In this document: positions 1 to 55,456 of the stretch, in pieces | Layout: each line of letters starts with the position of its first letter | How positions within the stretch are numbered: the first letter of the stretch is position 1 | Source: Candidatus Peregrinibacteria bacterium GW2011_GWA2_33_10 | GTDB taxonomy: Bacteria; Patescibacteriota; Gracilibacteria; UBA1369; GWC2-33-13 | NCBI GenBank assembly: GCA_000989565.1 | Contig: LBOO01000010.1 | Coordinates: 24,819 to 88,818 of the forward strand | DNA length: 64,000 nucleotides | Reading direction: 5' to 3' | Notes under the pieces: model-generated | What the model was told of the DNA's origin: nothing | Database searches by the model: none | What the model saw: only the letters and a program-made list of their open reading frames with translations | Made by a program: the position numbers and the translations under genes

Positions 1-602
1 AAGAAAAATATATGGATAATTATAACAAGCACATCAATGATCTGGATGCTCTTTCTCCTTTGTTAATGAAATATGAAAATAATAATTTTCTTTTCCCCAA
101 GATTGAAATTTATGAAGGAGTTAAAGGTGTTGCCAAGTCTTTTGTGAACTTTTATGAAGGTATTCCCGAGAGAGAAATTGTATATGATTTTGTTTCTCCG
201 GCTCCTTTGGAATCAGAAATGTTACGTCGAGAGCTTGGAGATACTATCACTGCCCGAATAAGCAAAAAAATTTTTTCTTATACTTTGGTTAATCCTTGCG
301 AAGATGCTGTCAGATTAAAAATTTTGGATGACAAGCAGTATAGAATAACTAAAATGAGCTTTGAAAAAGTATTGGATTCGATTACTTCGGAAATTTTAAT
401 TTATAAAAATAAGTTTCTTTGTATGTCCGGTTCAAAAGATGGGATTATTTCAACCATTATTATTAATAAAGACATAGCCCTTATGCATCGAGCGATTTTT
501 GAAATGGCTTGGCAGCAGGCAATCAAGGATGATGAGAAGATTTGCAAAAGGAAATCCATTCAGGATCTGTTTAAAAAATTAAAGGGAATTAGAAATTATT
601 AA
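1..602 (+). CDS. TrmB-like/HTH transcriptional regulator, C-terminal part (5' end cut by window edge)
   Basis: Frame is open to base 1 upstream of the ATG at 12. 'FPKIEIYEGVKGVAKSFVNFYEG' resembles the effector-domain start of TrmB-type regulators. Similar architecture to 10300..11070 and 56325..57074. Confidence 0.55.
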   Translation, partial: EKYMDNYNKHINDLDALSPLLMKYENNNFLFPKIEIYEGVKGVAKSFVNFYEGIPEREIVYDFVSPAPLESEMLRRELGDTITARISKKIFSYTLVNPCEDAVRLKILDDKQYRITKMSFEKVLDSITSEILIYKNKFLCMSGSKDGIISTIIINKDIALMHRAIFEMAWQQAIKDDEKICKRKSIQDLFKKLKGIRNY

Positions 603-616
603 TATAATTCTTTTAA

Positions 617-3418
617 TTAGTTTTGACTGTAAATTTCCAATTTTCGCTGTTCTGATAAAGCATATAAGGAGAAATTGGGATATTCCTGAAGTAACCAATC
701 TGAATTTTGGGCTTTATAGTCGCGTAATATTTTTTCTAAATCCACTAAATTTTGATTATTAGCGCTTTGTTGGTTTTTTCTAGTTAATCTTAAATTTAGA
801 ATTAAATATCTGGTATCTTGAGCTAAATCCTGATGTGTAAAAATCTTTTGTTCTGCTTCAAGTTTTTTAAGATACTCTCTAACAGGTTTTAAGTTGTCGT
901 AATTGTAGGCAATGGTTTCGAGGGCAAATACTTTTTCAATTTTGTAGCCATGATGATCAATTATCTTGAGAAGTTCAGGAATATTACTTATGCTGGAAAT
1001 ATTCAGATTAATGCTTTTTAGATTTTGGATACGGCTGGCTTGACTTAAAATTGGATTAATGAAATCGAGGCCGTTTTCTCCTCCACAGATAAGAGGGAAT
1101 TTTTTAATTTCTGATTGTGGAATTTTATTTTGCTCGCAATAATTGATGAATGATTCAACTTCCTGATCGTCTAGCTGATTATCCGCAGTATCCTTAGATA
1201 ATTGCGTTATATATTCTATAATTTTTGGATTTTTCAAGTAAGCATTCAGTTCCGGAGGCACGGGTTCCCACGGAGGATTGGCGGTTAGAATGCTGTGGGT
1301 GGTTCCTAAAGCCCATTCTAGAAGTTCCTCTGGGAATGCATCTTCAAGTGCGTCATGCTTCTGGATCAAGAAATTTGTTGAAAATTTCTCGCTATGATTT
1401 TCAGGTAACGTGGCTATAAGTTCTTGTTTTTTTGTTAGTGCATTATCAGGATATTTATCAAGTGCGATAATTCTGTCGCAATTTCCATTTAGAAACTGTG
1501 TTGCCGGAATGAGTGCTGATCCGGTACATATATCAATTTGAGTGATACTTGAATATGGTTCCAGATCTTTCAAATTTCTTAAATTTGAATTAACAGCTCT
1601 TAAAAAAAGCGCTGAGTCTTCGGAGGCGAAAAAATGGTTTTCTGATTCTTTTGCTGAATTTTGAGATCCTAGTTCTGATTTTTTGTAAATTGTTTTGATG
1701 AGATATTCTAAGGGGATATTGTCTATTTCTTTAGGTGTTTCTTCTTTAAGTACTTTTTTAAATAATGCACATAGATTATCTTCTTCCGTTCCTTTGAGCA
1801 CTGATGACATATCTGCCATGAGCAGCAATTCGGCGGTGCTTGATAATTGAGGATAAGGCAAGGAATTATGTTTTAAAACGATTTCTTTAGAGAAAAACTC
1901 ATTTTCTTCCTCATAAGGACAAAAATTAGTTGACCAATTTGTAAATATTTCTAGTTGTTCGATTATCTCTTGCTTATCAGGTGTTAAATTTAAAGTAGAA
2001 TTTTTTCTGATTCCTCCCAGTTCTCGAATAAGATTTGAGTATATTTTGTCATTTATTACTCCGTCATTTGAAATCCCACAGTCCTGTCGATTACCAAAAC
2101 ACAAAAGTTTATGCGCAAGCGAATGGAAATTAACTTGAAATAATTTTAATTCTAAAGGTGTTGGGTTGTCCAATTTCATAATGATTTCAATAGGTGCAGT
2201 TATTAACAAACCATTCACACTTTTATTTAATTGTGAAAAATATTCGATGCGTTTTTCCGCTGGCAGGATAAAAGCAATATGTTCTAGTGTTTTGATAATG
2301 ATTGGATTATCTGTATCCGATTCAATGATTGCATTTATATTATCTTCGAACTTCTCTCGGTTTATCTTTGATATTAGGGCTTTCGCCAATATATATTCCT
2401 GAATTGTTTGATGTACAAATGAATATTGATTGTCCACATTTTTGTCAATTAATCCTTCAGAGACAAGGTTCTCTAAAAGTTGTCTTTCAAATAGTATCTC
2501 TGAACTTGAACCTTCTTCTATAGTTAAGTTGAGATTTTTAATATCGATAGAGTTGTTTCCTCTGCTTAAAAGTTTAATTGCAATTTTATGAAGTAAGTTT
2601 TCTCGCAAATCAATTAATTCTTGCTCTGAAACCTCTCCAGTTTTGATAATATGACCAAAAAATGGATTACTTTTTAATTTTTCAAAATCGCATTCCAAAA
2701 CTTTTTTTTGATAATAAATCTCAAGTATTTTTGCTTCTGTAAGTTGATTTAAATCTGTAGTTTCATCAATTGTCTCAGACAGTAATCTTATGTTAATCGG
2801 AATTTTAAGTAGTTCCAGTAAAGATCCTTCCGGATCAAGATTTTCAATTCTATTCAGCAATAATTCTGTCTTTTCCGAAGTTAACTTTCTTTTTTCAAGA
2901 TTTTTAGAGAATAATTCTATTGATTGCTGTTTTGTTAGTGGCTCAATTTTGTAATGCTGGATTTCGTTGTCTAAAAGTAATTTAGATTGTTCTGTTCTAG
3001 AAGCTAGAATAATAATGTATCCCTTATTTCTGAGCCGTTTAAGCTGTGTAAGAACGAATTGATAATTTGTTCTGGTTATATATGGATCAATCCTATCAAT
3101 GAATATTATCGTATTTGGGTAAGGTGAAGGTCTCTCGAAAAGTGTTGAATTTTTGAAAAGTTCATCGAGGTTTAAAGTGATAATTGGTTGGTTTCCGAGT
3201 AAAAATTGATTTTGAATGTGCTGAAGTTCGATTGTTTTACCTATTCCTGCCAAACCTGAAAGGAGAGTTATTCTGTTATTATTTATTTCACCCAACACTT
3301 GCTCATCCGAACATAGCTTGGAAGAATCCGTTTTCAAGAATCTTCTATGTAAATGAATTTGGGATGATTCATTAATAGCTTCTTGTGGCTCTGTAAATTT
3401 TCTTTCTTGTATAAACAT
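617..3418 (-). CDS. NACHT/STAND-like P-loop NTPase fused to C-terminal PrmC/HemK-like SAM-dependent methyltransferase domain
   Basis: Walker A GLAGIGKT; Walker B TIIFIDRID; 'SFVHQTIQEYILAKAL' typical of the NACHT winged-helix segment; C-terminal motif I-like 'QIDICTGSALIPATQF', 'ILTANPPWEPVP' (NPPW/Y motif IV) and 'GGENGLDFINPILSQA' (PrmC/HemK post-motif IV). Confidence 0.75.
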   Translation of the reverse strand: MFIQERKFTEPQEAINESSQIHLHRRFLKTDSSKLCSDEQVLGEINNNRITLLSGLAGIGKTIELQHIQNQFLLGNQPIITLNLDELFKNSTLFERPSPYPNTIIFIDRIDPYITRTNYQFVLTQLKRLRNKGYIIILASRTEQSKLLLDNEIQHYKIEPLTKQQSIELFSKNLEKRKLTSEKTELLLNRIENLDPEGSLLELLKIPINIRLLSETIDETTDLNQLTEAKILEIYYQKKVLECDFEKLKSNPFFGHIIKTGEVSEQELIDLRENLLHKIAIKLLSRGNNSIDIKNLNLTIEEGSSSEILFERQLLENLVSEGLIDKNVDNQYSFVHQTIQEYILAKALISKINREKFEDNINAIIESDTDNPIIIKTLEHIAFILPAEKRIEYFSQLNKSVNGLLITAPIEIIMKLDNPTPLELKLFQVNFHSLAHKLLCFGNRQDCGISNDGVINDKIYSNLIRELGGIRKNSTLNLTPDKQEIIEQLEIFTNWSTNFCPYEEENEFFSKEIVLKHNSLPYPQLSSTAELLLMADMSSVLKGTEEDNLCALFKKVLKEETPKEIDNIPLEYLIKTIYKKSELGSQNSAKESENHFFASEDSALFLRAVNSNLRNLKDLEPYSSITQIDICTGSALIPATQFLNGNCDRIIALDKYPDNALTKKQELIATLPENHSEKFSTNFLIQKHDALEDAFPEELLEWALGTTHSILTANPPWEPVPPELNAYLKNPKIIEYITQLSKDTADNQLDDQEVESFINYCEQNKIPQSEIKKFPLICGGENGLDFINPILSQASRIQNLKSINLNISSISNIPELLKIIDHHGYKIEKVFALETIAYNYDNLKPVREYLKKLEAEQKIFTHQDLAQDTRYLILNLRLTRKNQQSANNQNLVDLEKILRDYKAQNSDWLLQEYPNFSLYALSEQRKLEIYSQN

Positions 3419-3734
3419 ATTAGATATTTTTTGAGTCCATACTATGTTGCTATTTGCTCAAAATGTCAATATATTGTAATATTGATTTATTAAATCATTG
3501 AAAATTTTAAAACATAAGCTTTAATCTTATGATTTAAAATTGCTACTTCATTATGATTTTGAGAATATAGGTGTTTTTTGGCATTTGGATTTGAGAAAAT
3601 TCAACTCAGTCCCCCACACCGGGTTTGATTTGGGATTGGAACGGGTCGTTGAGTTTTGTTTGCGGGACGCCGCATGTGAAAGAGACTATTCCGTTTCCGA
3701 GGGTGCTTAATCGGGTGATGCCTTAATAAAGTGT

Positions 3735-4984: not shown

Positions 4985-6640
4985 TTATAAATTTTCTAAT
5001 TTATGTATAAAAGTTAACAATTTATCAGTCGAAATTTTTTCATCAATAATTTCATCTCTTTCTGATAAATAATTTTGAGGATTAAAAGTAATTTTTCGTA
5101 TCCTTTTTAAACCATCATAAATAAAAAATGAATCTGGTATACCTACAGGAAGGGACTGCCTAATAACGATTGTTTTATCAAGAATATTATCTATTGGTTC
5201 TTTCCTTTTAAGCAACTGGTTATCTTCTTTTTTTCGACTTAATCCATGATAAGTTGCTATTATGCGTCCTTGAGGATATTCATGTGTAACACCTCCTTTT
5301 GCCATATTGTAAAGTCCAAACGGTCGTAACTGTATGCCGTTTATACAAGCAATTGAATCCCCCCCATATACATTTCCTGTCTTGTAAAACCTTTTTCCAA
5401 CTATTTTATAATGATCTTGCCAATGTGTTACATAGTTATGCTTTCGACTATTTCCCACGGTCTTATCAAATATGTCTAACATTGATCGGCCAATTTCATT
5501 ATTATATCGATCTGCTAGGATTTTCTTTAAGTAAAAACACAAATGACCTCTTCTTAAATAGTTGTCCTCTTGTGATCTATTTAAATCATCATAATTATTG
5601 TTAATTATATTAAAATAGCAGAAATTTGTATCTTGCACGCATACAATAATAACTTTTAATCTTTCTAATTCACGTATGTCATCTTTATTCAGACCTAATC
5701 TTATTAAGCTCTCTTTTTGAAATTTGCTTTTCTCCAGATTTTTTATAAAAGAAGAATTGGACTTAGTTATACCGGCATTGATTTCAACTTGAGTCGCATT
5801 TTTCTTAAAATAATCGGTTTCTTTATCTAAAAAATCCTCTAATTTCTTAAACGCAGACTCATCAAGTTTTAAAAATTTATCAAGTTTACCAAAATTCATC
5901 TCAAACAAATATTCATCATATATGAATTCGAACTCCTCTTTTAAAATTTCTTCTTTTTTAAAAAATTTAATTAATAAATTTCCTAAAATTTGAGATCTTT
6001 CAAATCGCCATTTTAAACTAATTAAATATTCAAATAATTCTTTTTTATACTGTGGTATGGTTGTAGAAAGCATTGGTGCTGTTCCGGCATGTCTTTTTAC
6101 AAAATTCAAAATTTCAGGGAGACCTTCTACTTCTAATGAATCGCAGTCGCCAAACAATGGACTTCTCAAATGAACTATTCGGCTTTTTTCCAAAAAAACT
6201 AATTGAGTAATATCTTCAGTTCCATTTGATTCATATAATTTCATAGTTTCCGCAAAAAGATGTAGCATTTGTGCAACAGGGATTTTTTCAAAATCTTGAG
6301 TTGGATATGCATCTGCTCCGCAAGTTGCCACGCAAGAACCATTACAGCCATGTACAGGTGACCAGCTATAAATATTCATAAGGACTAATTCTCTTTCTTC
6401 TTCATCCGTTATATTTCTTAGAGCAAATGGTGTTTTTGAGTCCGGTTCGGCAAGATCATAACTCCGCTTTAAAGTTCTTAGTTGTCCTCTTAAAGCTTCG
6501 GCTAGTCGGCGCTTAAAATATTTTAAATAAGGTATGGATCTTTGTAAATCCTCAATCGGTATTTCTTCACCAGACGTTTGCTTTTTAATTACTTCATTAA
6601 TAATAGTCTCCGCTGAATATTTTTTCGTTAACTCTGTCAT
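4985..6640 (-). CDS. Uncharacterised 551-aa protein, possible divergent radical-SAM-like enzyme
   Basis: 'SWSPVHGCNGSCVATCGADAYP' (CX3CX3C), followed by 'SPLFGDCDSLEVEGLPEILNFVKRHAGTAPMLSTTIP', reminiscent of radical SAM strand/helix spacing. Directly downstream of a bona fide radical SAM gene. Confidence 0.45.
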   Translation of the reverse strand: MTELTKKYSAETIINEVIKKQTSGEEIPIEDLQRSIPYLKYFKRRLAEALRGQLRTLKRSYDLAEPDSKTPFALRNITDEEERELVLMNIYSWSPVHGCNGSCVATCGADAYPTQDFEKIPVAQMLHLFAETMKLYESNGTEDITQLVFLEKSRIVHLRSPLFGDCDSLEVEGLPEILNFVKRHAGTAPMLSTTIPQYKKELFEYLISLKWRFERSQILGNLLIKFFKKEEILKEEFEFIYDEYLFEMNFGKLDKFLKLDESAFKKLEDFLDKETDYFKKNATQVEINAGITKSNSSFIKNLEKSKFQKESLIRLGLNKDDIRELERLKVIIVCVQDTNFCYFNIINNNYDDLNRSQEDNYLRRGHLCFYLKKILADRYNNEIGRSMLDIFDKTVGNSRKHNYVTHWQDHYKIVGKRFYKTGNVYGGDSIACINGIQLRPFGLYNMAKGGVTHEYPQGRIIATYHGLSRKKEDNQLLKRKEPIDNILDKTIVIRQSLPVGIPDSFFIYDGLKRIRKITFNPQNYLSERDEIIDEKISTDKLLTFIHKLENL

Positions 6641-6724: not shown

Positions 6725-7942
6725 TCAGCGGAGTTGTATTAACCGGTTAAGCTTGTCAGTGTCAAACACAAATCCTTTATCTTTAATATAATTTCCATAG
6801 ATAAAAGTATTTCCGAGTCCTTTTTCGCTATCAATTTCCAAGCAGGAAGTGGCAAGACCTGTGGGAGTAACTATAAATGATGGCCTCACTGCCCCACACC
6901 GAAAATCTCCCTCCAATATACCTTGATTTGGAGTTGTAACTGTATGAATAATATTCTTTCCATAGTTCTTTCCAATTTCAAAAGCTTCAGTTATATATTT
7001 TAAAAATTTAGAATTATGAAGGGATTTTATTCCATTGTCTCTGGCTCGTCCCGAATTAATTACCGGTGCGAAGCTAAGTGATTTTACATTTTTGAATCTT
7101 TCAAAGTTAAATTTGGCTATTTGCGGGATTTTACAAACTGTTTGTTCAGAGACGATAGTTTCGATATTAAATGGGATACCAGATTGGTTAATAAATTCCA
7201 AATTTTTTATTACAGTTTCTTCTGAAGATTGGCCTGATTTAAAAGAGCGATGTAATGTTTGTCCGTCCGGGCCGTCGAAAGTTATGGTTAGCTCATCAAT
7301 ATTTTCGGTGAGCCATCTAATATTTTTCGGATTGTTAGCAGCATTTGTAATGAGTTTTATATCAGAAATCAAATTATGAGTTTGTGATTGTTTCCTAAAA
7401 TAATTAACCGCTGCCTTTAATAATTTCATGTTGCTCGTGGGCTCACCGCCCCCATGAAAATCCATATAAACGTTTTTGGAACCTGCTTCCATGGCATTTC
7501 CAATTACCAAATCAATCGCGGATCTGGCAATTTCCCATGGCATGTTTTTTACTTTATCTTTTTCTCCGGCATGAGAATAACAATAAACACACTTTAAATT
7601 ACAGTTGGATGTGGGAAGCAATCTCACTCCAATAGGCTTAAAATCACTTGATTTTTCAATTCCAAAATCCGGATTATTGTTTCTACTCGCAATAGTGGGT
7701 GGTAAATCGAGACCAATATTTATCATTTCAGCCCGAATTTGTAATGGATTGTCTTTGTATATTCTGATGATATTTTCAATCAAGGCGATGCCTTGCGGGT
7801 TTGCTTCAAAAACACAATTTTCCAATGGGAAATACAAGATGTAGTTATCTCCATTAGTGATGCGGTAAACGCCTTCGTATAGTTTTTCTCCCGCTTGATA
7901 TTCAATCATTGAGTATTCTTCATGGTTTTTCGATTGTTCCAT
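6725..7942 (-). CDS. Radical SAM peptide maturase (anSME/SPASM-like); likely true start 7942 (MEQSKNHEEY...)
   Basis: CX3CX2C 'CNLKCVYC', 'MDFHGGGEPT', 'LTITFDGP', SPASM-like 'CGAVRPSFIVTPTGLATSCLE'. The track's extension to 8161 overlaps the candidate precursor ORF. Confidence 0.85.
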   Translation of the reverse strand: MEQSKNHEEYSMIEYQAGEKLYEGVYRITNGDNYILYFPLENCVFEANPQGIALIENIIRIYKDNPLQIRAEMINIGLDLPPTIASRNNNPDFGIEKSSDFKPIGVRLLPTSNCNLKCVYCYSHAGEKDKVKNMPWEIARSAIDLVIGNAMEAGSKNVYMDFHGGGEPTSNMKLLKAAVNYFRKQSQTHNLISDIKLITNAANNPKNIRWLTENIDELTITFDGPDGQTLHRSFKSGQSSEETVIKNLEFINQSGIPFNIETIVSEQTVCKIPQIAKFNFERFKNVKSLSFAPVINSGRARDNGIKSLHNSKFLKYITEAFEIGKNYGKNIIHTVTTPNQGILEGDFRCGAVRPSFIVTPTGLATSCLEIDSEKGLGNTFIYGNYIKDKGFVFDTDKLNRLIQLR

Positions 7943-7982
7943 AAATTTAAAGTTAAAAATTAAGCTTATTAATTTTAAGTTT

Positions 7983-8019
7983 AGGGAGAGGAAGATACTT
8001 TGTAGATCTTCCTCTCCCT
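7983..8019. promoter_or_regulatory. Perfect 14-bp inverted repeat between candidate precursor and maturase
   Basis: agggagaggaagat (7983-7996), 9-nt loop, atcttcctctccct (8006-8019). No clear U-tract on either strand. Confidence 0.8.
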
Positions 8020-8024
8020 TTGGA

Positions 8025-8123
8025 TCACCCCCCATGCACGGGGCAATCACACCCATAACCATAACAACGTCCATGCCTTTTTTCTCTAACTTTAAGTAAC
8101 TTTTTTCCTTTGAATTTGAACAT
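8025..8123 (-). CDS. Candidate RiPP precursor peptide, 32 aa: MFKFKGKKLLKVREKRHGRCYGYGCDCPVHGG (not in the supplied ORF track)
   Basis: Codon-by-codon reading on minus strand from ATG 8123-8121 to TGA 8027-8025. AGGAG at 8130-8134 with 6-nt spacing. Lysine-rich leader-like half, Cys/Gly/Tyr-rich C-terminal half. Directly upstream of the radical SAM maturase. Confidence 0.75.
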   Translation of the reverse strand: MFKFKGKKLLKVREKRHGRCYGYGCDCPVHGG

Positions 8124-8400
8124 TTCTTTCTCCTTTTTGGGTGTTTTTTTTTGCCCATCACCTCTCCGCTTTTTGCGGGGGCAATGGGTCAAAAGTACGC
8201 ACAAATTTATAAATGAAATTTTTATTTAAAACAAAAAAATTAAAATATTTTACAGAAATTTTTATAAATTATTTTAATTTATTAATTTTTATTTTATTTT
8301 TAAAAATGGTTTATTTAAACCAATAATCAAATATTAATTTAGTCATTTTCTTACTTTTTAAATATTTGAATGCAAATATTTTTTATGGTGACAGCTTTTG

Positions 8401-8451: not shown

Positions 8452-10290
8452 ATGCAGAGACTTGATAATCATTTAAGGTTAGATGAGGCAAATGGTTTGA
8501 TTGCAAAAGAACAGCTGTATTTTATTGTTGGTTTATCAAATGGGATAAATGAAAATCCTGAGCAGAATCTTTATTTGCCTTTTGATATGGTTAGGTATTT
8601 GGATTATTTGGCCAGAAATGATGGTTTGATTATGCTTTTTGATGCTCCGAATATTGGAGGTGGATTGCCTGATTCTGTATGGGAAAAAGCGTGCGGAGAC
8701 ATGCGAAATAGAATTCAGTGTTTGATAGATGCTTTTGAATTTAAGGAATTAAAAGTCTTGAAAGCTTCCGAAGCTATTGATAAAGACAGATTTATTGAAA
8801 CTTTTGAGTCGGTAAGAAAAATTGTAATTCAGAATAGTGATATCGCTGAAAAAATGTGGCAAATAGTTCCTCCCAGCGCGAGATTAAGCGAGAATTTGGA
8901 TGCAAAATGTAAAATCAGTAATTTGACTAGTGAGGAAAAAGAAAGAGCGTTTAAGCTAATGGAATATGAAATGCAACATGTGGCGGCAATTTTAGCTAAT
9001 GATGGGACAAAAATCTTGCATGGCAGATCTGAAGAAAGAAGCGCGCAAATAGTTAAAATTTTGGCTGAAAATTTTTCAGATGAAACTTCATGCTTAAAAT
9101 GGCAAGGTAATATCATGAATCCTTCAGAATTAAAAGATAGGAGACTGGACCCTGAAAAATATCCTTTACCATATCGTCTCGCAGATATTAAGTCAGTGGA
9201 AGAAATCAATTATTTTATTTTGAGTTTTGGTCAAATACCTTTAATTCCTTCAATTCATCTTGGCGACTCTATTTTTGAATTATCTCGTTTAGGTAAAAAA
9301 GATTTGATTAGAAAATATTTATTAAATAATTTCAGATCTGAAAATGATAAAATTTTAATTGATCAACTGGATTTTGAGATAATGAAAGATTGTTATATTT
9401 TGGCGAGTTTTCTGGTTAATAAAATAATCTGGCCTGTTGAGAGAAAAAAACTGGAAAAAATAAAAGAAAACTCTGATCCTGTTTTGGAATCCAAAGCTAT
9501 GTTACAGGTTTTGAATATTCAGAGTGATATTTGTTTATCACCTTTTTTTAAAACAATAATTGAAAAAGTCATGCCGACCTATTATGGAAAATGCGATATG
9601 TCGGATCTCAAAGTTTATTTAAAATGGTTAATAGAGGGTATTGTCGGTCCGTTTTCAATTTGTCCCGATTCTTTTGAAAGAGATATGTTGCAACATTGTA
9701 TTTATCAATTATCGGATATTTATAATATCTTGGGAGGGGACGAACTTGAACTTAGCAAAAATCCCAACTGGATAAATATTTTTTTTGAGATTGATGCTGA
9801 CTTAAATCATGGAAAATTAACCTCCGTTTTAATGAATAACGCGGTTTCAATGAAAAATGTGCCGGAAATACGCACTCAAGAATCAGAAAATTTAAAATAC
9901 ATAGCGGGCGTTAATTATTTTGACATGCAATTTGATAATATTTCTTTTCTTAGCCCTCTTGACATGAAACTTCCTGAGAATAGAGAGTTGAGAAAAACTT
10001 TCCTGTTGCATATTTTGATGCCTTATTTTAATAAAACCAATCCCGGGGTTATTTCTTTATTGAATAGATCTTTGGGTACTTCTACGGAACAGATGACTAT
10101 TTCTTTATTTTTTGAAAACTTTCTAAGCAATTTTTGTAAAAATATTGCCGCTAAAAATGGTATGAGCTTGAATGTATTAAAAATTATTTGCAACTGCGCC
10201 TTAAGAGATCATACTTTAAATTCCGGATATTGGGATTATCTATGTTTTTTGTCAGGTATTGATTCTTTATCTCAAGATGAAATTGTATGA
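8452..10290 (+). CDS. Hypothetical 612-aa protein
   Basis: Long ORF with consensus promoter, divergent from the radical SAM cassette. No confident family assignment. Confidence 0.7.
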   Translation: MQRLDNHLRLDEANGLIAKEQLYFIVGLSNGINENPEQNLYLPFDMVRYLDYLARNDGLIMLFDAPNIGGGLPDSVWEKACGDMRNRIQCLIDAFEFKELKVLKASEAIDKDRFIETFESVRKIVIQNSDIAEKMWQIVPPSARLSENLDAKCKISNLTSEEKERAFKLMEYEMQHVAAILANDGTKILHGRSEERSAQIVKILAENFSDETSCLKWQGNIMNPSELKDRRLDPEKYPLPYRLADIKSVEEINYFILSFGQIPLIPSIHLGDSIFELSRLGKKDLIRKYLLNNFRSENDKILIDQLDFEIMKDCYILASFLVNKIIWPVERKKLEKIKENSDPVLESKAMLQVLNIQSDICLSPFFKTIIEKVMPTYYGKCDMSDLKVYLKWLIEGIVGPFSICPDSFERDMLQHCIYQLSDIYNILGGDELELSKNPNWINIFFEIDADLNHGKLTSVLMNNAVSMKNVPEIRTQESENLKYIAGVNYFDMQFDNISFLSPLDMKLPENRELRKTFLLHILMPYFNKTNPGVISLLNRSLGTSTEQMTISLFFENFLSNFCKNIAAKNGMSLNVLKIICNCALRDHTLNSGYWDYLCFLSGIDSLSQDEIV

Positions 10291-10299
10291 AAAAAAAAT

Positions 10300-11070
10300 T
10301 CAGTTATTGGTTTTATTCGTAAATTCTCTGATTATCTGAAAAACAGTTCTCATGTTATCGGCAATTAATCGGTTTTCAATGATTACGCCACTCATGTCTT
10401 TTGGATCGTATGACCAGAAAGCCGTTTTGTCGCCATAAATCGCAGTGGTTAGAGTAAAGGGGAATTTTTGAAAATCGACAAATATGAATTCGTCGTAGCT
10501 TTCAGAGGCGATTTTTTTATATTCTCGAGCTTTTTCACCGTCATTTAAAATTATTTTATTTTTATTTTTATGCTTGTTACATGTAGGTATGTAAACATTG
10601 TAGGTGTATTCTCGAATTTTCGGGTGCATCATGTTGTGTCCGGAAATGTATAAAACTGTTTGATCTTTAGTCGCAAAGTCGTCAAGCATACGGCAAAGTC
10701 CTTCGATGCCTTCGAAATAAAGCACATTCGATTTATTGATTTTTGACTGTTTAATTGTATTTAAGATAGGAATGAATGTTTGGGAATCATTAATTAATTT
10801 TTGGACTTTTGCTTTTTTCTCCAACAGTTTATATTCGAGTAATTCGGGATTGATACAGTTAAAATATATAACTTTTTTGCGTTGAATTTTGCCGGCAAAT
10901 CCTTTTTTTATCAGTTCTTCAAATATAAATCTTGTTGTGGTTCTCGGAAGATTTAATTTTTTGGCAATTATACTCGCGGGCTGGGAACCGTATTTTAAAG
11001 AAGCAAGATATATTTCAATTTCTTTATTATTTAAGTCAAAATTTTTGAGAAATGATCTTAAGTTGAGCAT
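10300..11070 (-). CDS. TrmB-family-like transcriptional regulator
   Basis: N-terminal HTH 'FDLNNKEIEIYLASLKYGSQPASIIAKKLNLPRTTTRFIFEELIKKGF', coiled linker, 'VLYFEGIEGLCRMLDDF'. Confidence 0.75.
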   Translation of the reverse strand: MLNLRSFLKNFDLNNKEIEIYLASLKYGSQPASIIAKKLNLPRTTTRFIFEELIKKGFAGKIQRKKVIYFNCINPELLEYKLLEKKAKVQKLINDSQTFIPILNTIKQSKINKSNVLYFEGIEGLCRMLDDFATKDQTVLYISGHNMMHPKIREYTYNVYIPTCNKHKNKNKIILNDGEKAREYKKIASESYDEFIFVDFQKFPFTLTTAIYGDKTAFWSYDPKDMSGVIIENRLIADNMRTVFQIIREFTNKTNN

Positions 11071-11198: not shown

Positions 11199-13418
11199 AT
11201 GAGAAATATTCAGGGAGAATTGGATAATAACATTATTCCATTTCCGATTCCGAAAACCAAGGCATTAAATCCCGACGCTTATTATAAAAAGGAGGAACCG
11301 AAAGATGAGTTAGGCGACGAGATGATTGACTTTATTGAAGATGCGGATTCATATAGAATCTCTTCTATCAATTCAGAAAATTTTAAAGATTTTTATCACT
11401 TCTTGATAAAGGGAAGTTTACAAAAAAATGATCATCCGATGTTAATTCAAACTTTAGATAGATTAGAGAAAATAATGGATGTGATCGAATATGCAAACCA
11501 AGGAAGAGATGAGGATAAAAAGATTTATTTATTTAATTTACTTTTTGAAGCCAATAATCTGAAAGCAGAATCGGATATTGATCACTCCCTTATTTTCGGT
11601 AGAGAAAAACTGCGGAACATTACCAAGCTGGAACAATATTTACTGGCATATAGAGATTTAATCCATGCATACTTAAAAGAAGATGAGAGTTCTATGCAAT
11701 TAATCAATAACTCTTTAAAAAAATGCCGAAAATTACAATTCAGAATTGAACTTTCCATGATTTTTACAAAAATCAGATATTATTTACAAACAAGCGGCGC
11801 GTTCGCATCCCTTTTGTTTGTTGATGATATAGATAGAATTATAAAACCGGCTCCTCAATCATTCAATTTTGAAGAATTGAGTGGCAATATCGAAATTCCT
11901 CAATTGAACGAAATTGATCTGCAAGAATCAGATTGGAACGCTCTTCATGCGGAACATAAAGAACTATTTTCGACTTTTTTGCAATTGGAAGACATGCCTA
12001 AAGAGAGTTTAGTGAAACCTTTCTCGGTTGTATCATTGAGCATTAAACAAGGGAACGGGATAACTCAAGCCATTTATTCATATTTAATCAAGCATTTTGA
12101 TGAGAATTCGGTGTTAAAATTTTTTAATCAAAAAAGTATTTTAGATATTTTAAATCCTTTAATTATTGAAAGACCTGACACGTGGCAAGATGGAAAATTA
12201 CCAAAAATCGTAAGAGCCGGTGATAACTTTAAAATTAATCAAGACGCTCTTTTTGATGCAGTGAAAATATTGGAGAAAAATCCAAACAAGGCTTTTGTCC
12301 GGAAAGAAGTTGATAAGAAACCTGAGTCGAAGATGAGCGATGATTTTGAAAAGTTTAAGGGTGTATTTTTCGAAGACACAAATGATGGCATAAATGTCGG
12401 CAATAAGGATTCAATAGATAAAGCTTTTTTTCTTGATGAAAATAATAACCCCATACCAACAAAAGAAGTGAGGAGGCCTGAATTCTCGAAAACCGAGAAA
12501 CTTAATGATCAAATGTCAGATGATAATCCGACAACACATGTGTCTGCTCGGCACATAATCGGAGATTCTCAGCATTCCTTATTTGGATCCAATAAAGTGG
12601 ATTTAAAAAAACCTTCCCCCTTAAGAATTGACATGGATAATTATAATCAAACACTGGCTATGTTATACGCGAATTCAGATGGTCCCGAAAACTTGAAAAA
12701 ATTTCCTTCTGTGAGGCAATACTTTGTGGATCAACTTTCAACTTGCCCATCTTATATATCTTTATCCAAGAATATTGATGCCAATTTGATGTCCGGAATT
12801 TTTATCGATTATTTCATTGAGCTTTTAAGTAAAAATTACGGAACAAATCATGCAAATTATGATATAGATTCTTTGAGAAATTTTTTTGACACTGATAAAA
12901 ATTCCCAAAAATGGCTATGGAATAATTTAAATAAATATCTGGAAAAAAACTCTGTAATTGGCATGAATGGAGATAGAGTTATTAATTTTCCCGGATTTCA
13001 GCAAGATATTTTAGGGAATGTGATGAAGGAATCAAAAAGTTATTATGAGAAGAAAATGGAATCGCAAAGTCCCAAAGGCGGAGTACGTAACTTTTTCGGA
13101 AAAATTTTTAAGCGTAAAGAGGCTGAACCTGTGGCAATGACAAATGCTGATCCATTGGAGATTATTATTCCTGAAGGAGAAAGAGATACTATGGAATATT
13201 TATCACGAATTTATGATTTCGGTATTTTATACAATGCCAGAGCTTTAAGTAACTTGAAAAATAATGATCCGAAAACTCACAGTCAATTAATGGAAATTAA
13301 ATTTATTATAGAAAAAAGTCGGCAAAATCATGATTCCGGTAAACCTGTTGTACACATACCTTATCATTTAAAGCAGATATTTTATGATGTAATTAAGAAA
13401 AAAAATATTCGCGCTTGA
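11199..13418 (+). CDS. Hypothetical protein, paralog of 13480..15285
   Basis: Shares 'KGNGITQAIYSYLIKHFDENSVLKFFNQKSILDILNPLI..PDTW' and the 'WLWNNLNKYLEKNSVIGMNGDRVINFPGFQQDIL' block with the next gene. Confidence 0.75.
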   Translation: MRNIQGELDNNIIPFPIPKTKALNPDAYYKKEEPKDELGDEMIDFIEDADSYRISSINSENFKDFYHFLIKGSLQKNDHPMLIQTLDRLEKIMDVIEYANQGRDEDKKIYLFNLLFEANNLKAESDIDHSLIFGREKLRNITKLEQYLLAYRDLIHAYLKEDESSMQLINNSLKKCRKLQFRIELSMIFTKIRYYLQTSGAFASLLFVDDIDRIIKPAPQSFNFEELSGNIEIPQLNEIDLQESDWNALHAEHKELFSTFLQLEDMPKESLVKPFSVVSLSIKQGNGITQAIYSYLIKHFDENSVLKFFNQKSILDILNPLIIERPDTWQDGKLPKIVRAGDNFKINQDALFDAVKILEKNPNKAFVRKEVDKKPESKMSDDFEKFKGVFFEDTNDGINVGNKDSIDKAFFLDENNNPIPTKEVRRPEFSKTEKLNDQMSDDNPTTHVSARHIIGDSQHSLFGSNKVDLKKPSPLRIDMDNYNQTLAMLYANSDGPENLKKFPSVRQYFVDQLSTCPSYISLSKNIDANLMSGIFIDYFIELLSKNYGTNHANYDIDSLRNFFDTDKNSQKWLWNNLNKYLEKNSVIGMNGDRVINFPGFQQDILGNVMKESKSYYEKKMESQSPKGGVRNFFGKIFKRKEAEPVAMTNADPLEIIIPEGERDTMEYLSRIYDFGILYNARALSNLKNNDPKTHSQLMEIKFIIEKSRQNHDSGKPVVHIPYHLKQIFYDVIKKKNIRA

Positions 13419-13479: not shown

Positions 13480-15285
13480 ATGTCAGATAATAATATTTAT
13501 TTAGATGAAAATTATAAAAACTCGGTACACGCTTCTTCTCCTGATGATGATGATAAATTCGGTTTTTTTATAAATGAAAAAAAAGATCCAGAGAATGGCG
13601 ATACTAAAAACGCTATTTTGGATGATGATACAGGCTTTTTCGAAGATTCCAATAAATTCGATGCTTATGTTGAATTTAATAATACTGTTCAGAATCTTAA
13701 ATTGGAAAAAATTGAAAATACTGATTTAATAAATGATTTAATCAGAAAAGGCACTGAATTGGGTGATAGTGAAATCCTCAAAGCCAGCTTGGATAAGTTG
13801 AATAATTTTAAAAGATTTTTCGATATCGTTCGGCAAAAAGGTTTAGGTTATCTAAAGCCATATTTGGATACACCTCCAGACCTCGAGATTGATGAAGAAA
13901 ACGATTATTTGATAATTCCGGGCCGGAAAAAAATTTTAGAAATCAGAGAATTTCAAAGGAGATTAAATAATTATAAAAATCTTATTAGTGTATATGCTTA
14001 TGAACAAATAAGCGCCATTAAATTAATTGAAGAACAAATAAAAAAATGTGAAAAAGTTATAAGTAAAATCGAAATCAGAAGAAAAATCACCAAGTATAGA
14101 TACGCGATTCAAACGAGCATCGCCGTAGGAATAGCTTTGGCAGTTCCGGCGGATAATAAAACTGTCTTTGAAAGACCGGCTTCCGCTTATGTAGAACGCG
14201 TTGACATGGATTTCGGGCCTCAAACCTTGCCGGAAGATTTAGAGCCGGAAAATGAATATGCCGCCGAAAAAACATTTTTAAAAATTGCTCAAGGAAAAGG
14301 TATAACGCAAACCATTGAAGATCATTTAAAAAAGAAATACGATCCTAATCTTTTGAATGATTTTTTCAATCAAAAAAGAATTTTAGCCATTTTAGATCCT
14401 TTAATCGGAGACAAGCCCGATGCGTGGAATGAAAAATTGCCGAATAATGTCAAACCAACGGATAAATTTTCATTTGATGACAAAGGTGCGGATGATGCTT
14501 TAAATAAATTTATCAAATCTCAAGAGCAGAAAAAGCATTTCGTGGTTCAAAGAGAAAGGCCTAGTTTTAAAGCAAAAGCAAGTGATTTGAAGGAAAAAAA
14601 ATCATTACCCCAAAAATTTTCCGATGATACAATTAAAAGTGAAAAAACTGATCAGGAGCAAGAAAGTACGCAAAAAAATGCCGGCAAATTCCAAGCATCT
14701 GAGCCATCTATTGCGAGGCCGAAAATTGATGACAATGAATATTTTCGATCTAATGGGACGGTAAGAATTGATCGTGCAGTCTATTATAAAAATTTGGCAA
14801 TGGCGAAACACGCAGGTTATGAAGGTAATTTTCCGAATTCCGTTGAATATTTTTCTAATCAATTATTAACGAGAAACCCAAAATTCGTGGTTCTTCCTCA
14901 TTATACAACTCAAACTTTTGTTTCAGGCGTGCTAATGGACTTTACAAAAAATTTATATGATGGAAATTCAGGAATTGATCTTTCAAAAATTGACCGTGGG
15001 AGAACGCTTCAGCAGTTACGAAGTTTTCAAAGTTTATTGGCCAATAATAAAGAAGCGCAGAATTGGCTTTGGAAGCAGCTGGAATTTTATTTGGAAAAAA
15101 ATCAATCTATTGGCAAAGACGGAGATATTGTCATAAATTGGACAAGCTTCCAAACTGATATTTTGGAAGAATTGATTAGTAAATCATGCGATTATTTGGA
15201 AAAATTTCAGAAAAACGCAGATCAAAAATACAATTCAGGTCTTTTTGGTCGTGTAAAAAGTTTCTTTGAAAAAAGATTTGTTTAA
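13480..15285 (+). CDS. Hypothetical protein, paralog of 11199..13418
   Basis: 'QGKGITQTIEDHLKKKYDPNLLNDFFNQKRILAILDPLIGDKPDAW' and 'WLWKQLEFYLEKNQSIGKDGDIVINWTSFQTDIL' match the upstream gene. Confidence 0.75.
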   Translation: MSDNNIYLDENYKNSVHASSPDDDDKFGFFINEKKDPENGDTKNAILDDDTGFFEDSNKFDAYVEFNNTVQNLKLEKIENTDLINDLIRKGTELGDSEILKASLDKLNNFKRFFDIVRQKGLGYLKPYLDTPPDLEIDEENDYLIIPGRKKILEIREFQRRLNNYKNLISVYAYEQISAIKLIEEQIKKCEKVISKIEIRRKITKYRYAIQTSIAVGIALAVPADNKTVFERPASAYVERVDMDFGPQTLPEDLEPENEYAAEKTFLKIAQGKGITQTIEDHLKKKYDPNLLNDFFNQKRILAILDPLIGDKPDAWNEKLPNNVKPTDKFSFDDKGADDALNKFIKSQEQKKHFVVQRERPSFKAKASDLKEKKSLPQKFSDDTIKSEKTDQEQESTQKNAGKFQASEPSIARPKIDDNEYFRSNGTVRIDRAVYYKNLAMAKHAGYEGNFPNSVEYFSNQLLTRNPKFVVLPHYTTQTFVSGVLMDFTKNLYDGNSGIDLSKIDRGRTLQQLRSFQSLLANNKEAQNWLWKQLEFYLEKNQSIGKDGDIVINWTSFQTDILEELISKSCDYLEKFQKNADQKYNSGLFGRVKSFFEKRFV

Positions 15286-16952: not shown

Positions 16953-19900
16953 TCAGGGAGTAGGAAGAGGGTTAACTCCACGTTCTTCCAACAAATTAGC
17001 AGCTTCCATTCTATCCAATACAGCAGCTAATTGAGCTCTGTTTACGATTCCGTAAATGTCAGCTTTTACACCATTATCCGTGTCTTGACCGGTGATGATA
17101 CCATAGAAATTAAGTGCTCCGATTGCTTGACAGTAAGGCAAGTCAGCCTCGTTCGCACAATCCGAGAAAATTTCTTTTACGTCATCAACACTTAAGTCAC
17201 CTGCTACATCTTGCATGCCATAAGCACTTACAAGTAATTGAGCTAATTGACCTCTTGTGGCGGCGTTGAAGTAATTTGTTTGAGAATTACAATTTGTCCA
17301 ACCATTGTCTTCACAAGTTCGGATATTACCTTTTGCCCAAGCCGGAGCATTTTCAGGATTTGTCGGCTCGCCAGTTTGGTCTTTTCCGTATTTATCACGA
17401 ACGATAGTTGTAATTACTTCAGCTAAAGCTGCAGGATCGCCCGGAGCAAAGCTTTTATCGGTATAATCATTTTCAATTTCTTTACCTTTGATCATACCCA
17501 ATTGGCTCATAGCATTTGCTGACTTGTAATACCAGTCATCAATTTTTACATCGCCAAAATCAGTTAATCCTTCTTCAACAGCATATTTTTGTTCTTCGTT
17601 CTTTAATTTTATAATTGCTGATTTTGCTGTTGTTAAACAATTGATATCTTCTTTAGCGACACAAGCTTCGATTTCAACACGTTTGGCTTCGATTTTAGAA
17701 GCCATTTCGTCGTTAATCGGATTTAATTTAGCCAATTCCGTAGTAGCTCCATCAAATTGTGTTTTTAATTTTTTGTTCTCTGAAGCCAATTCTTCGTTGG
17801 CTGATTCCAATTCGGCAATTTTTTGAGCCATTTCGCTCATTCTTTTACCGATTTCATCTACTTTTCCGGTATCACCGACAGCTAGAACATTTTCCATTAA
17901 ATTAGTATGTTTCTGTTCCAATGCTGATTTAACCTGTTGATTTGTGATTGTCGCTACAGTTTCAACCAAGCTGGAAACAACACTTTGGGTCATTTGTTCA
18001 ACTTGTTGCAACATTTGAGCCATTTTGGCTTCAAACATCGCATTCAATTGTTGTTCAAATTGTTCAAAACTGACTGCTCTTGATGATTCTCCTGAATCAC
18101 CTTCTTCAAACATGTATCCAAATTTATCTTGAATTTGTTCATTATACATGCCTTCTTGATTTTTCATAGGGTAGCCCATTCCGGCTCCGCCTGAGATCTG
18201 CATCAAAGCGCGTTCGAAGTTTTCTTTGATAAATCCGGCTGAACGCATTGCTTCTTCAGCGCAGCCAAAATCTTCTACTGCTATACATTTTTCAGCTTCA
18301 TTGGATAATCTTTTTGCTTTATCCAAAATTTTAATTAATGCATCTGTATTTTTGCCTTTTGCTTGTAAATCAGAGATAATTCCTTCTCCTTCAGCTATTC
18401 CGCTCTTTAAATCTTTTACCCATCTAGAAATATCTTTGCCCATTCTGACATCTTTTACAGATTCATGAAGGTTTTTCACTTGTTCCCACATATCTCCCAT
18501 TTCCCAACGAGCATCATCAAATGCTGTTCTTACTGTATCGCCGTCTCCGCTATTGAATGCTTCTTCAATTGAAGTTACAAAAGCAGTACAAGTTTCCACT
18601 ATTTTTTTAGCGGCTTCAGCATCTGCGCCTTCTTTTACAGCTCTACCTGTTTCTTTTTCAATATTTTTACATTCTCGTACAAAGTTTTCTTTTTCACGAG
18701 ACATGTTTGCCAGCATCTCGAAACTTTGGAAAGACTGCCACATATCTTGGCGGCTCCAATTAAGTTCGTCTCTGCCTCCTTGGCATTCCTGCATTTGAGA
18801 CATATATTCCATCTGATCATAACAAGATTTTACAGTGTTAACTACGGCCTCAAAGTCAGTTAATTTAGTTTGAAAAGCGGCAATGGCTGAATTATCTGAG
18901 CCAAGTTGTTTTGCCATTTTTTCAAGCATTCTTTTCCATGTTTTCAAATCGTTTGCATTCTCGCGTTCAACTTCTTTTTTCATTCTTTCAATATCTTTTT
19001 GAGCTCTTGGATCTTCAGAAATTTTTGGTCCGTTTTGGTCAAAATTTCCTTGCTCAAAATTTGGACCTTGCCATTGCTGTCCTTCTTTTCCATTGTTAAA
19101 ATTGTAATTTCCCCATGGATCATTTGTCATTGGAGGATTCATTCCAGGCTGCCCCGGCATTCCAGGTTGAGTTGGAGCTCCATATTGAGGATTCATAGTA
19201 TTATTCATGGCTTGTTCACAACTCATGTTTGGAGGAAAACATGGAGCATCTGTTACGTTTCCACACCATGTACCGCCATTAGCAGAACATTCTTCCTGAT
19301 CCATATACATCCAATCAGTACCGGCATCCGGATATTTTTGATCGGGATATTGCTGTCCAGGTTGTGTACCGTTTGGATATTGTTGTCCAGGGTATGGTTG
19401 TGGTTGTGTACCGTTCGGATATTGTTGTCCAGGGTATGGTTGTGGTTGTGTACCGTTCGGATATTGTTGTCCAGGGTATGGTTGATAAGGTTGTGTACCA
19501 TTTGGATAAGGTTGACCATTTGGTTGTGTGCCGTTTGGATATTGTTGTCCAGGCTGTGTGCCGCTTTGTTGATCACAGTGTACCTGACCATCAGGTGTTT
19601 TATAACAACCTGGAGGAACTCCTTGTTGATCCATTGGATATTGTTGTCCAGGATATGGTTGATAAGGCTGTTGGCCGTTTGGATATGGCTGTCCGTTTGG
19701 TTGTGTACCATTTGGATAAGGTTGTCCATTTGGAGGTGGCATTTGTCCGTCCGGTGGTGGTGGCATGTTGCCATTCGGTGGTGGTGGCATATTGCCATCC
19801 GGTGGTGGTGGCATATTGCCGTCCGGTGGTGGTGGCATATTGCCGTCCGGTGGTGGTGGCATATTGCCGTCCGGTGGTGGTGGCATTTGTCCCTCAGGTG

Positions 19901-20045
19901 GTGGTGGAGGATTATCTACCTGAGTCTTCAGGTTTTCTGTTTGGATGGCTGTTGCCAATACCAAACTGAAAGTCAAAACAGCAAGCACTGACGCGCTTAC
20001 TAATTTCGCTTTTTTACTTAAACTAATGTTTCCTCTTTTTTTCAT
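16953..20045 (-). CDS. Secreted surface protein: proline-rich repeats, coiled coil, C-terminal SLH-like domains
   Basis: Signal/anchor 'LVSASVLAVLTFSLVLATAIQ', (MPPPPDGN)n and (GQQYPNGTQPQPYP)n repeats, SLH-like 'FGDVKIDDWYYKSANAMSQLGMIKG'. Likely start MKKRGN at 20045. Confidence 0.8.
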   Translation of the reverse strand: MKKRGNISLSKKAKLVSASVLAVLTFSLVLATAIQTENLKTQVDNPPPPPEGQMPPPPDGNMPPPPDGNMPPPPDGNMPPPPDGNMPPPPNGNMPPPPDGQMPPPNGQPYPNGTQPNGQPYPNGQQPYQPYPGQQYPMDQQGVPPGCYKTPDGQVHCDQQSGTQPGQQYPNGTQPNGQPYPNGTQPYQPYPGQQYPNGTQPQPYPGQQYPNGTQPQPYPGQQYPNGTQPGQQYPDQKYPDAGTDWMYMDQEECSANGGTWCGNVTDAPCFPPNMSCEQAMNNTMNPQYGAPTQPGMPGQPGMNPPMTNDPWGNYNFNNGKEGQQWQGPNFEQGNFDQNGPKISEDPRAQKDIERMKKEVERENANDLKTWKRMLEKMAKQLGSDNSAIAAFQTKLTDFEAVVNTVKSCYDQMEYMSQMQECQGGRDELNWSRQDMWQSFQSFEMLANMSREKENFVRECKNIEKETGRAVKEGADAEAAKKIVETCTAFVTSIEEAFNSGDGDTVRTAFDDARWEMGDMWEQVKNLHESVKDVRMGKDISRWVKDLKSGIAEGEGIISDLQAKGKNTDALIKILDKAKRLSNEAEKCIAVEDFGCAEEAMRSAGFIKENFERALMQISGGAGMGYPMKNQEGMYNEQIQDKFGYMFEEGDSGESSRAVSFEQFEQQLNAMFEAKMAQMLQQVEQMTQSVVSSLVETVATITNQQVKSALEQKHTNLMENVLAVGDTGKVDEIGKRMSEMAQKIAELESANEELASENKKLKTQFDGATTELAKLNPINDEMASKIEAKRVEIEACVAKEDINCLTTAKSAIIKLKNEEQKYAVEEGLTDFGDVKIDDWYYKSANAMSQLGMIKGKEIENDYTDKSFAPGDPAALAEVITTIVRDKYGKDQTGEPTNPENAPAWAKGNIRTCEDNGWTNCNSQTNYFNAATRGQLAQLLVSAYGMQDVAGDLSVDDVKEIFSDCANEADLPYCQAIGALNFYGIITGQDTDNGVKADIYGIVNRAQLAAVLDRMEAANLLEERGVNPLPTP
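19363..19492. repeat. 42-bp coding tandem repeat (GQQYPNGTQPQPYP)
   Basis: 'gtaccgttcggatattgttgtccagggtatggttgtggttgt' reiterated. Confidence 0.8.
19740..19911. repeat. 24-bp coding tandem repeat (MPPPPDGN)
   Basis: 'ccgtccggtggtggtggcatattg' reiterated about 7 times. Confidence 0.9.
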
Positions 20046-20268
20046 TTGTTTTTGTTTTAAAAAATAAAAAGAGTTCTTTAAAAAATATATTAAAGTTTTG
20101 TTGTATTTAATGTGATTTTTAGTTTTTTGTCGCATTAACAATAAAATGGATAAAATCAGGTAATTATGACATGCTTTTAGAGATATGTCAAGAATGACAA
20201 ATAAGATTATCCTTTTAAATTAGGAACTTTATTACTTTTTAATCCGATAAATCATTGTTTATTCAATT

Positions 20269-53329: not shown

Positions 53330-55456
53330 CTATATATATTTCAGAGCGTCATTTATATCCAATTTATTGAGCATTAATGCTTTATTGATGAGGGCACCTT
53401 TGCATCCGATCTTTTTTAAAGTTTGTAAATGTTTAATTTCTGAAATGCCACCGGCGTGGAATACATTTATATTTTTGAAAAAACTGATTACTCTGTCTGT
53501 TTCGTCAAAATGAGGCAGTAAGGTGCCTTCCGTATCCAGATCTTTAATAATAATATTTTTTATACCAAAAGATACTATTTTTTCAGCGTAACGCAGAACC
53601 TCTATTTCTTGCGTTTTATCATTCTCCTGTAGTTTTACATATCTACCGCGGCTTAATAAACCGAAAATTATTTTTTCATATCCAAAAACATTAATTGCCT
53701 GTTTTATGATTAATTCCGCTCTTTTACCTAAAATAACTTTATCAATTCCAATATTTATTAAATTTTCGATTTGATCGAAAGAATTGATCCCTCCGCCATA
53801 AATTATAGGGACATTGGTATTTAGAACTATTGATTTAACTATTGATAAATTCTCCCCTTCTCCATTATGAGCATCCAGATCAATTATTTCCAAAATATTG
53901 GCGCCTCTTTGAACCAAATTAATGGCTTTTTTAACGGGTTTTTGATAAAAAACCTCTTTTTGCTCATTCTCGTAACCTTTGTATAGGGAGACGATTTTGC
54001 CTTTCTGAAGCTGCAGGGAAGGAATAAGGAGCATGAGGAAGGAGTAAGTTACCGCATTGTCGTTTTCACTTTCAAAATCGTAAGTTACACAATATGGTGT
54101 GCCTATTTCATCTTGGCGGCGGTATCTTTTGCCTATTGAACCGCTTAAGTCGTATTCGGCTGTAAAATATTCTTTTAATTGTTTGTAAACTGAATATGAT
54201 TTTTCCTGCAACTTATTTGATAATGGCAAAATCGCCACTTTTATCGGAGCAATGCTTTTATTAAAACGCATTACAACCCTTTCCTCACTTTCAACTTTTT
54301 CTTCGTGATAAGCATTTATTAAAAACGTTAACACCGTGCGATCCAAACCAAAAGACGGTTCTATGACATGTGGCAGGAATTTTTTATTGGTTTGCGGATC
54401 CAAATACTGTAAATCTTCACCGGAGAATTTTTGATGCTGTGAGAGGTCAAAATCTCCGCGATACGCAATTCCCTGTAATTCACCCCATCCAAAAGGAAAT
54501 TTATATTCAATATCTTTGGTCATTGATGAATAATGTGATAATTCTTCTTTGGTATGTTCTCTGAAATGGAGATTTTCTTTTTTTATACCTAAATCTGTGA
54601 ACCAATTCATGGATATTTGACACCATGTTTCAAAAATTTCTTTTTCTGAACCGGGTTCAATAAAATATTCTATTTCCATTTGTTCAAATTCGCGGGTTCT
54701 AAACGTAAAATTGCCGGGAGTGATTTCGTTGCGGAAAGATTTTCCGATTTGAGCGATTCCGAATGGTAATTTTTTGCGGCTTGTAGTCTGGACATTTTTA
54801 AAATTTACAAAAATTCCCTGAGCAGTTTCAGGTCTGAGAAATATGGCTGCTGCTTGCTCTTCAATCACGCCCTGAAATGTTTTGAACATCAAATTAAATG
54901 AACGCGGTTTCGTGAATTCATGAGAACCGCATGATGGACATGTTATATCAAGAAATTGTAAAAGCGGAGTTAATGCTTCCATTAAAAATTTTCCCTGGTC
55001 TTTTTCCAGTAATGGCATTAATTCCAAGGCTTGTTCACGGCTAAAAGCATTATTATCTTTGGAAATATCTTTTTCTTCGGAATCAATCCATTCTTCAATG
55101 TGTTTTTTGGCCAATTCCGGATAAACTTCATTTGATTTTTCTTCAATTAATTTATCGCCTCGAAAACGTGTTTTACATTTTTTACAATCAACCAATGGAT
55201 CGCTAAATGATGTTACGTGGCCGGAAGCTTCCCAAACTTTGGGATTCATTAAAATCGCGCTATCCAATCCCACCATATCTTCTCTTTGCATTACAAATGT
55301 TTTCCACCAATTATCTTTAATATTTTTCTTCAATTCGCAGCCATAAGGGCCGTAATCCCAAGTATTCGCCAATCCGCCATAAATTTCAGAACCGGGAAAT
55401 ATAAATCCCCTTCTTTTACATAAAGAAACTATTTTATCCATTGTTACTTCTGCCAT
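53330..55456 (-). CDS. Glycyl-tRNA synthetase (alpha2 type) fused to C-terminal HisA-like TIM barrel
   Basis: GlyRS '[25 protein letters not shown]', '[15 protein letters not shown]', '[20 protein letters not shown]'. From 54034 down: HisA-like '[25 protein letters not shown]...IIDLDAHNG...IIYGGGINS...VILGKRA...[21 protein letters not shown]...HAGGISE'. Confidence 0.88.

Follow-up and report, generated by a model that had tools for sequence, protein, structure and literature searches.

The DNA analysed here raises the question of whether a bacterial gene can join a STAND-type NTPase to a methyltransferase and, if so, what the resulting protein might do. The window, a stretch of 64,000 nucleotides from Candidatus Peregrinibacteria bacterium GW2011_GWA2_33_10, carries an ORF of 933 amino acids (P0001; positions 617-3418, minus strand), which a sequence-only reading had described as a STAND/NACHT-like NTPase ending in a PrmC/HemK-like methyltransferase domain. 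The gene is intact, all the motifs quoted in that reading are present in the order given, and the fusion is borne out by the motifs, by a homologue and by profile comparison.

The fused gene and its NTPase half

The reading frame of P0001 starts with ATG, contains no internal stops and stays open across the junction of the two halves. It is the sole copy in a genome of 1.26 Mb and is located on one contig of 88.8 kb. Since codon usage and GC content by codon position are alike in both halves, the sequence shows no trace of an assembly join, and on these properties an assembly artefact appears unlikely. A promoter-like site, TTGACA-17-CATAGT (3441-3469, minus strand), recognised by its match to the consensus only, lies 22 bp ahead of the ATG. 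Just upstream of this site, an AT-rich near-palindrome (3503-3541; 87% over 39 bp, fold z=-3.5) is a possible candidate for an operator or a hairpin.

The NTPase module occupies about aa 40-350 (2369-3301, minus strand, as are all the following features of P0001) and was delimited by weak Pfam profiles and motif order. Walker A (GLAGIGKT, aa 55-62; 3233-3256), Walker B (TIIFIDRID, aa 103-111; 3086-3112), a sensor-1-like IIILASR with the Ser/Thr-Arg typical of STAND NTPases (aa 135-141; 2996-3016) and a NACHT-type winged-helix segment of the form F-x-H...QEY, FVHQTIQEYILAKAL (aa 334-348; 2375-2419), follow one another in the order of STAND/NACHT proteins. The segment quoted in the sequence-only reading, FVHQTIQEYILA, begins at aa 334, and the winged-helix assignment also draws on a weak nSTAND_NTPase4 match at aa 312-342. 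In Pfam, nSTAND_NTPase5 matched aa 46-146 with E=9e-4 and 19.5 bits against a curated cut-off of 34, NACHT scored 11.7 bits, below its cut-off of 26.7, and AAA, AAA_14 and nSTAND3 matched more weakly than nSTAND_NTPase5. No single-sequence profile of Pfam or NCBIfam reached its curated cut-off for either domain of P0001. Shuffling the residues of the N-terminal part 50,000 times never produced the STAND-order pattern, and 200,000 shuffles of the C-terminal part never produced a relaxed motif-I/NPP[YFW]/GGxxG pattern; because both patterns were written after the sequence had been seen, these tests are merely illustrative. Judged by its motifs, the N-terminal part of P0001 is a divergent STAND/NACHT-like NTPase.

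No close relative of the NTPase was found in the genomes searched, the 302 genomes of the class giving only a broken-frame fragment and a marginal match. Locus L102 (G238:C45:69331-69708) resembles the NACHT winged-helix region of P0001 (E=1.9e-4); its frame has stops, which rules it out as an intact relative, and it may be a relative, now decayed, from another family of the class. Another weak match in the class, L004, was spurious. Between the two modules lies an unassigned stretch of 158 aa (aa 421-578; 1685-2158), which had no match in the family libraries searched, PHROGs included, and is missing from the stand-alone homologue of the methyltransferase described below. Close whole-protein homologues of P0001 were found neither in plasmids, phages, viral contigs and 99 relatives nor, by pattern searches, in genome contigs. 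P0001 is a genuine fusion of two domains of known kinds, seen in a single instance and undescribed in the literature found. The case for its functional unity therefore depends on one ORF in one genome.

The methyltransferase domain and its stand-alone homologue

The C-terminal domain extends over about aa 579-885 (764-1684) and was delimited with the stand-alone homologue and by hhalign to PrmC. The earlier placement at about nt 760-1600 was right to within ~100 nt: homology begins with aa 579 (nt 1684), and the final conserved strand reaches to ~aa 880-885 (nt ~764). Motif I, IDICTGSALIPA (aa 628-639; 1502-1537), the predicted SAM-binding loop, was assigned by motif, homologue alignment and hhalign, as was GGENGL (aa 779-784; 1067-1084), the counterpart of the PrmC-type GGxDGL motif. 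Motif IV, NPPW (aa 714-717; 1268-1279), lies 61 aa ahead of GGENGL inside a conserved ANPPWEP and was assigned by motif and homologue alignment. TANPPW begins at aa 712 and GGENGLDF at aa 779.

Searches with P0001 as a single sequence returned only a methyltransferase fragment from NCBIfam (PRK14968, E=0.0028, aa 777-831) and nothing informative from the PDB, and its score against the PrmC HMM was near noise, 10 of 2000 shuffles being equally high. In a search of the phylum (389 genomes), a genome of another class, G376 (the MAG 'bacterium isolate USDE_metabat.163_sub'), yielded a stand-alone protein of 376 aa homologous to aa 579-903 (30% identity, E=2.9e-33). The alignment of the two proteins keeps D-x-C-x-G-x-x-L-x-P-A, A-x-D-x-Y-P, D-x-L, ANPPWEP, CGGxxGLxF, YKIEK and ET-x-AY-x-YD, together with a C-terminal DxRYL. 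With the exception of G376, the methyltransferase was absent from the other genomes of the order (90) and from the phylum sample (389), and exact motif patterns run across 85,488 species recovered the G376 contig, JAKQHK010000071.1, alone.

When P0001 and its homologue were combined in a two-row profile, hhalign against an 18-sequence PrmC alignment gave a probability of 89% (P=2.1e-6) and a score of 50.7, compared with a best score of 22.5 for 60 column-shuffled controls. The same profile matched four separately aligned PrmC sequences with P=2.4e-5 and the genome's own PrmC alone with P=1.6e-3; three other ORFs of the same genome that are picked up by the PrmC model gave no hhalign match with it. 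The methyltransferase is therefore established by a homologue that keeps the motifs at 30% identity and by profile-profile similarity to PrmC. From this comparison, the C-terminal part of P0001 is a class-I methyltransferase with its motifs in PrmC/HemK order, and its predicted motif I, NPP[YFW] and GGxDGL stand in the register of the PrmC/HemK-type superfamily.

Structure prediction, which had been put forward as a check, gave two models, both of low confidence: a single-sequence AlphaFold model of aa 400-933 had a pLDDT of 35, and a two-row model, built from an alignment that contained no PrmC, showed the class-I alternation of strands and helices with a pLDDT of 40 and a pTM of 0.39. The best PDB match of the two-row model was a SAM methyltransferase (Foldseek probability 0.96, TM 0.36). 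The model is consistent with a class-I methyltransferase fold and is not proof of it.

The sequence-only reading had regarded the existence of the two parts as separate genes elsewhere, with an assembly join here, as fatal to the fusion. The methyltransferase is indeed a separate gene in G376, and nothing points to an assembly join. Likewise, the search for the same fusion in other genomes returned the methyltransferase in stand-alone form, the fusion to the NTPase being seen only in the window genome. On its sequence distribution, the methyltransferase is an independent module which elsewhere forms a gene of its own.

Methylation of release-factor GGQ peptides, the activity suggested earlier, is unlikely. 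A TIGR03534 search of the genome found a true PrmC on contig C26 (220 bits, over the cut-off) and listed six other places, P0001 not being among them. Since only ~30 aa precede the core of the stand-alone homologue, at the place taken by the N-terminal helical domain in PrmC, the release-factor-binding domain is missing from this protein. A release-factor methyltransferase role is thus disfavoured by the genome's own full PrmC, by the lack of room for the helical domain and by the failure of the PrmC model to pick up P0001. Large PrmC-like ORFs in two further genomes (G029 and G030) were considered as relatives and proved to be either fusions of an unrelated kind or different methyltransferases.

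The TrmB-type partner and the segment at asnS

Facing the 3' end of P0001 is a TrmB-type HTH regulator of 283 aa, whose 3' part lies at positions 3-602 (plus strand) and whose start lies upstream of the window at C10:24569. It matches Pfam TrmB (PF01978) with E=1.1e-11 and 44.8 bits against a cut-off of 25.6. Regulator and methyltransferase genes are arranged tail-to-tail, with a gap of 14 bp in the window genome and of 3 bp in G376, and the regulator is the sole gene conserved alongside the methyltransferase in both genomes. The two regulators are 40% identical over their full length (E=1.8e-64); the other TrmB-type proteins of the window genome reach E=9e-20 at best, and the next best genome in a phylum-wide search only 2e-36. 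They are also sisters, with support of 95/93, in a regulator tree in which some rows are fragments or wrongly chosen frames.

Tail-to-tail packing was found at 15 of 35 TrmB-type loci, many of them with housekeeping partners, so that the packing is not special in itself and orientation alone means little. The partners of TrmB-type regulators elsewhere are mutually unrelated, and the recurrence of this regulator with this methyltransferase is therefore specific. Because both methyltransferases stand tail-to-tail with orthologous regulators, regulator and methyltransferase form a real, rare pair. A second TrmB-type regulator in the window (10300-11070, minus strand) is packed tail-to-tail, 9 bp off, with a 612-aa orphan protein (8452-10290, plus strand).

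Regulator and fusion gene lie within a segment of ~5.1 kb whose right-hand border is formed by the 3' end of asnS in a second, decayed copy (3578-3725, plus strand). This copy of 148 bp is 82% identical over 150 columns (E=4e-37) and ends at the equivalent stop codon. The intact asnS is found at C10:21980-23293 (NF003037, E=1e-160), its end ~5.1 kb upstream of the decayed copy, and between the two lie a 345-aa orphan gene, the TrmB-type regulator and the fusion gene. Borders formed by an intact asnS end on one side and its displaced copy on the other are the arrangement expected of an integrative element, and from its sequence the segment looks like an insertion at the 3' end of asnS which left the displaced end behind. 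Since no integrase gene was found within the ~5.1-kb segment, the segment may equally well have been transferred by recombination within asnS, and a partial duplication of this gene is a possible alternative to insertion. Horizontal transfer is the probable origin of the fusion gene, which would have come in as an accessory cassette with a regulatory or conflict role.

Several other genes of the window have unusual features of their own. A GlyRS ORF (53330-55456, minus strand) has its last ~20 residues replaced in frame by a HisA/HisF-like barrel (aa 477-703), which matches His_biosynth (E=1e-40) and TIGR00007 (E=1e-39). A protein of 551 aa that has a CNGSCVATC cysteine cluster and matches nothing in Pfam (4985-6640, minus strand) adjoins a radical-SAM protein (6725-8161, minus strand) that is like RiPP maturases and weakly like prokaryotic viperin. 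Two adjacent large proteins (11199-13418 and 13480-15285, plus strand), also with no Pfam match, are apparent tandem paralogues which have the blocks GNGITQAI/GKGITQTI and FFNQK.IL.IL.PLI...PD.W in common. Finally, a secreted-looking protein of 1062 aa (16953-20141, minus strand) has long PPPPDGN and QPYPNGT repeats and apparent S-layer-homology repeats at its C-terminus.

Possible function and comparison with known systems

We propose that P0001 encodes a signal-gated methyltransferase, probably as part of a horizontally gained accessory cassette, and consider the chances of this to be about even. The NTPase would rest with ADP bound until a ligand frees it; ATP binding would then lead to its oligomerisation, and oligomerisation would activate or cluster the C-terminal methyltransferase. 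The methyl acceptor may be a planar nitrogen, as NPPW points to. Given this motif and PrmC as the closest profile, the likeliest substrate would be a protein side-chain amide (glutamine or asparagine), a nucleic-acid amino group seeming less likely. The TrmB-type regulator might control the cassette or serve as a substrate of the methyltransferase. That the protein is a STAND-type sensor with regulated protein methylation as its output, in which a PrmC-like enzyme encoded on a small transferable cassette would modify a translation factor or the partner regulator, we hold to be unlikely.

Alternatively, P0001 could be an anti-phage or conflict protein in which infection would bring about oligomerisation, methylation of a host target such as a translation factor and a stop of growth, an explanation we find rather unlikely. 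Bacterial STAND NTPases are strongly linked to defence (PMC12169576, PMC10907252), the methyltransferase is patchy, occurring only in G376 besides the window genome in the order and the phylum sample, and the site at asnS is insertion-like. However, no defence genes were recognised among the surrounding ORFs, a minority of which were compared with defence models, and neither P0001 nor the neighbouring genes examined matched PADLOC convincingly. Moreover, the domain order is opposite to that of known systems, an NTPase is lacking in the stand-alone homologue, and as its conserved partner the methyltransferase has a transcription regulator.

This partner is central to another explanation, to which we would likewise give a rather low probability: the methyltransferase may modify the neighbouring TrmB-type regulator, or its operator DNA, with the NTPase setting the timing only, in a sensory-regulatory pair that would not be a defence system. 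The conservation of the orthologous regulator as the only shared neighbour, and the unrelated, often housekeeping genes beside other TrmB-type regulators, argue for a specific association, but tail-to-tail packing is common in the family.

That P0001 is a DNA or RNA N-methyltransferase, with NPPW as the mark of an amino-methyltransferase and a switch ATPase coupled to it in a restriction- or BREX-like style, appears very unlikely. NPP[YFW] is common to N6-adenine and N4-cytosine methyltransferases, and NPPW is frequent there. Against this, the best match is to the PrmC profile, GGxDGL included, in an hhalign comparison that covered PrmC only; a restriction partner is absent, and the family libraries gave no DNA methyltransferase match. 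A chimeric assembly or a decaying pseudogene could account for a methyltransferase that stands elsewhere without an NTPase and for the decayed gene fragment close by, but is highly improbable in view of an unbroken 933-aa frame with halves alike in codon usage and GC, intact catalytic motifs in both, a promoter-like site just upstream and a single 88.8-kb contig carrying everything.

If the NTPase does gate the methyltransferase, as in the signal-gated reading that we prefer, the output of a STAND protein would here be protein editing by methylation, not cutting of DNA or protein or consumption of NAD. A methyltransferase output was not mentioned in the literature found on STAND or ternary conflict systems, which is weak evidence because the coverage was incomplete. 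Bacterial NACHT proteins normally have an N-terminal effector and a C-terminal sensor (PMC12169576, PMC10907252), on either side of a central NTPase in the tripartite rule (PMC12169576). P0001 resembles bNACHT/AVAST proteins (NACHT/Avs STAND NTPases) in the order of Walker A and B, the sensor-1 Arg and a winged-helix segment of NACHT-like type. Unlike them, it has only ~40 aa before the NTPase and no N-terminal effector, and its C-terminus is an enzyme, the methyltransferase, with no recognised sensor repeat, so that the layout is reversed; it also stays below the Pfam cut-offs, in surroundings without recognised defence genes.

In P0001, motif I, the acidic residue that follows strand 2, NPP(Y/W) and GGxDGL have the same order and register as in PrmC/HemK (TIGR03534). 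P0001 differs in having NPPW where PrmC has NPPY, in a spacing from NPPW to GGxxGL that is ~40 aa longer and in a long insert before the last strand. The regulator beside it is a clear member of the TrmB-type family (PF01978), but its C-terminus is longer than that of most others found, and in both members linked to the methyltransferase the alignment extends to the profile's end. In G376 the NTPase is neither fused to the methyltransferase nor nearby, whereas the orthologous regulator stands tail-to-tail with it as in the window genome. The G376 homologue, which stands alone beside the same regulator, thus allows a natural comparison of the enzyme with and without its switch, which, together with two defined catalytic sites, makes the gating idea directly testable.
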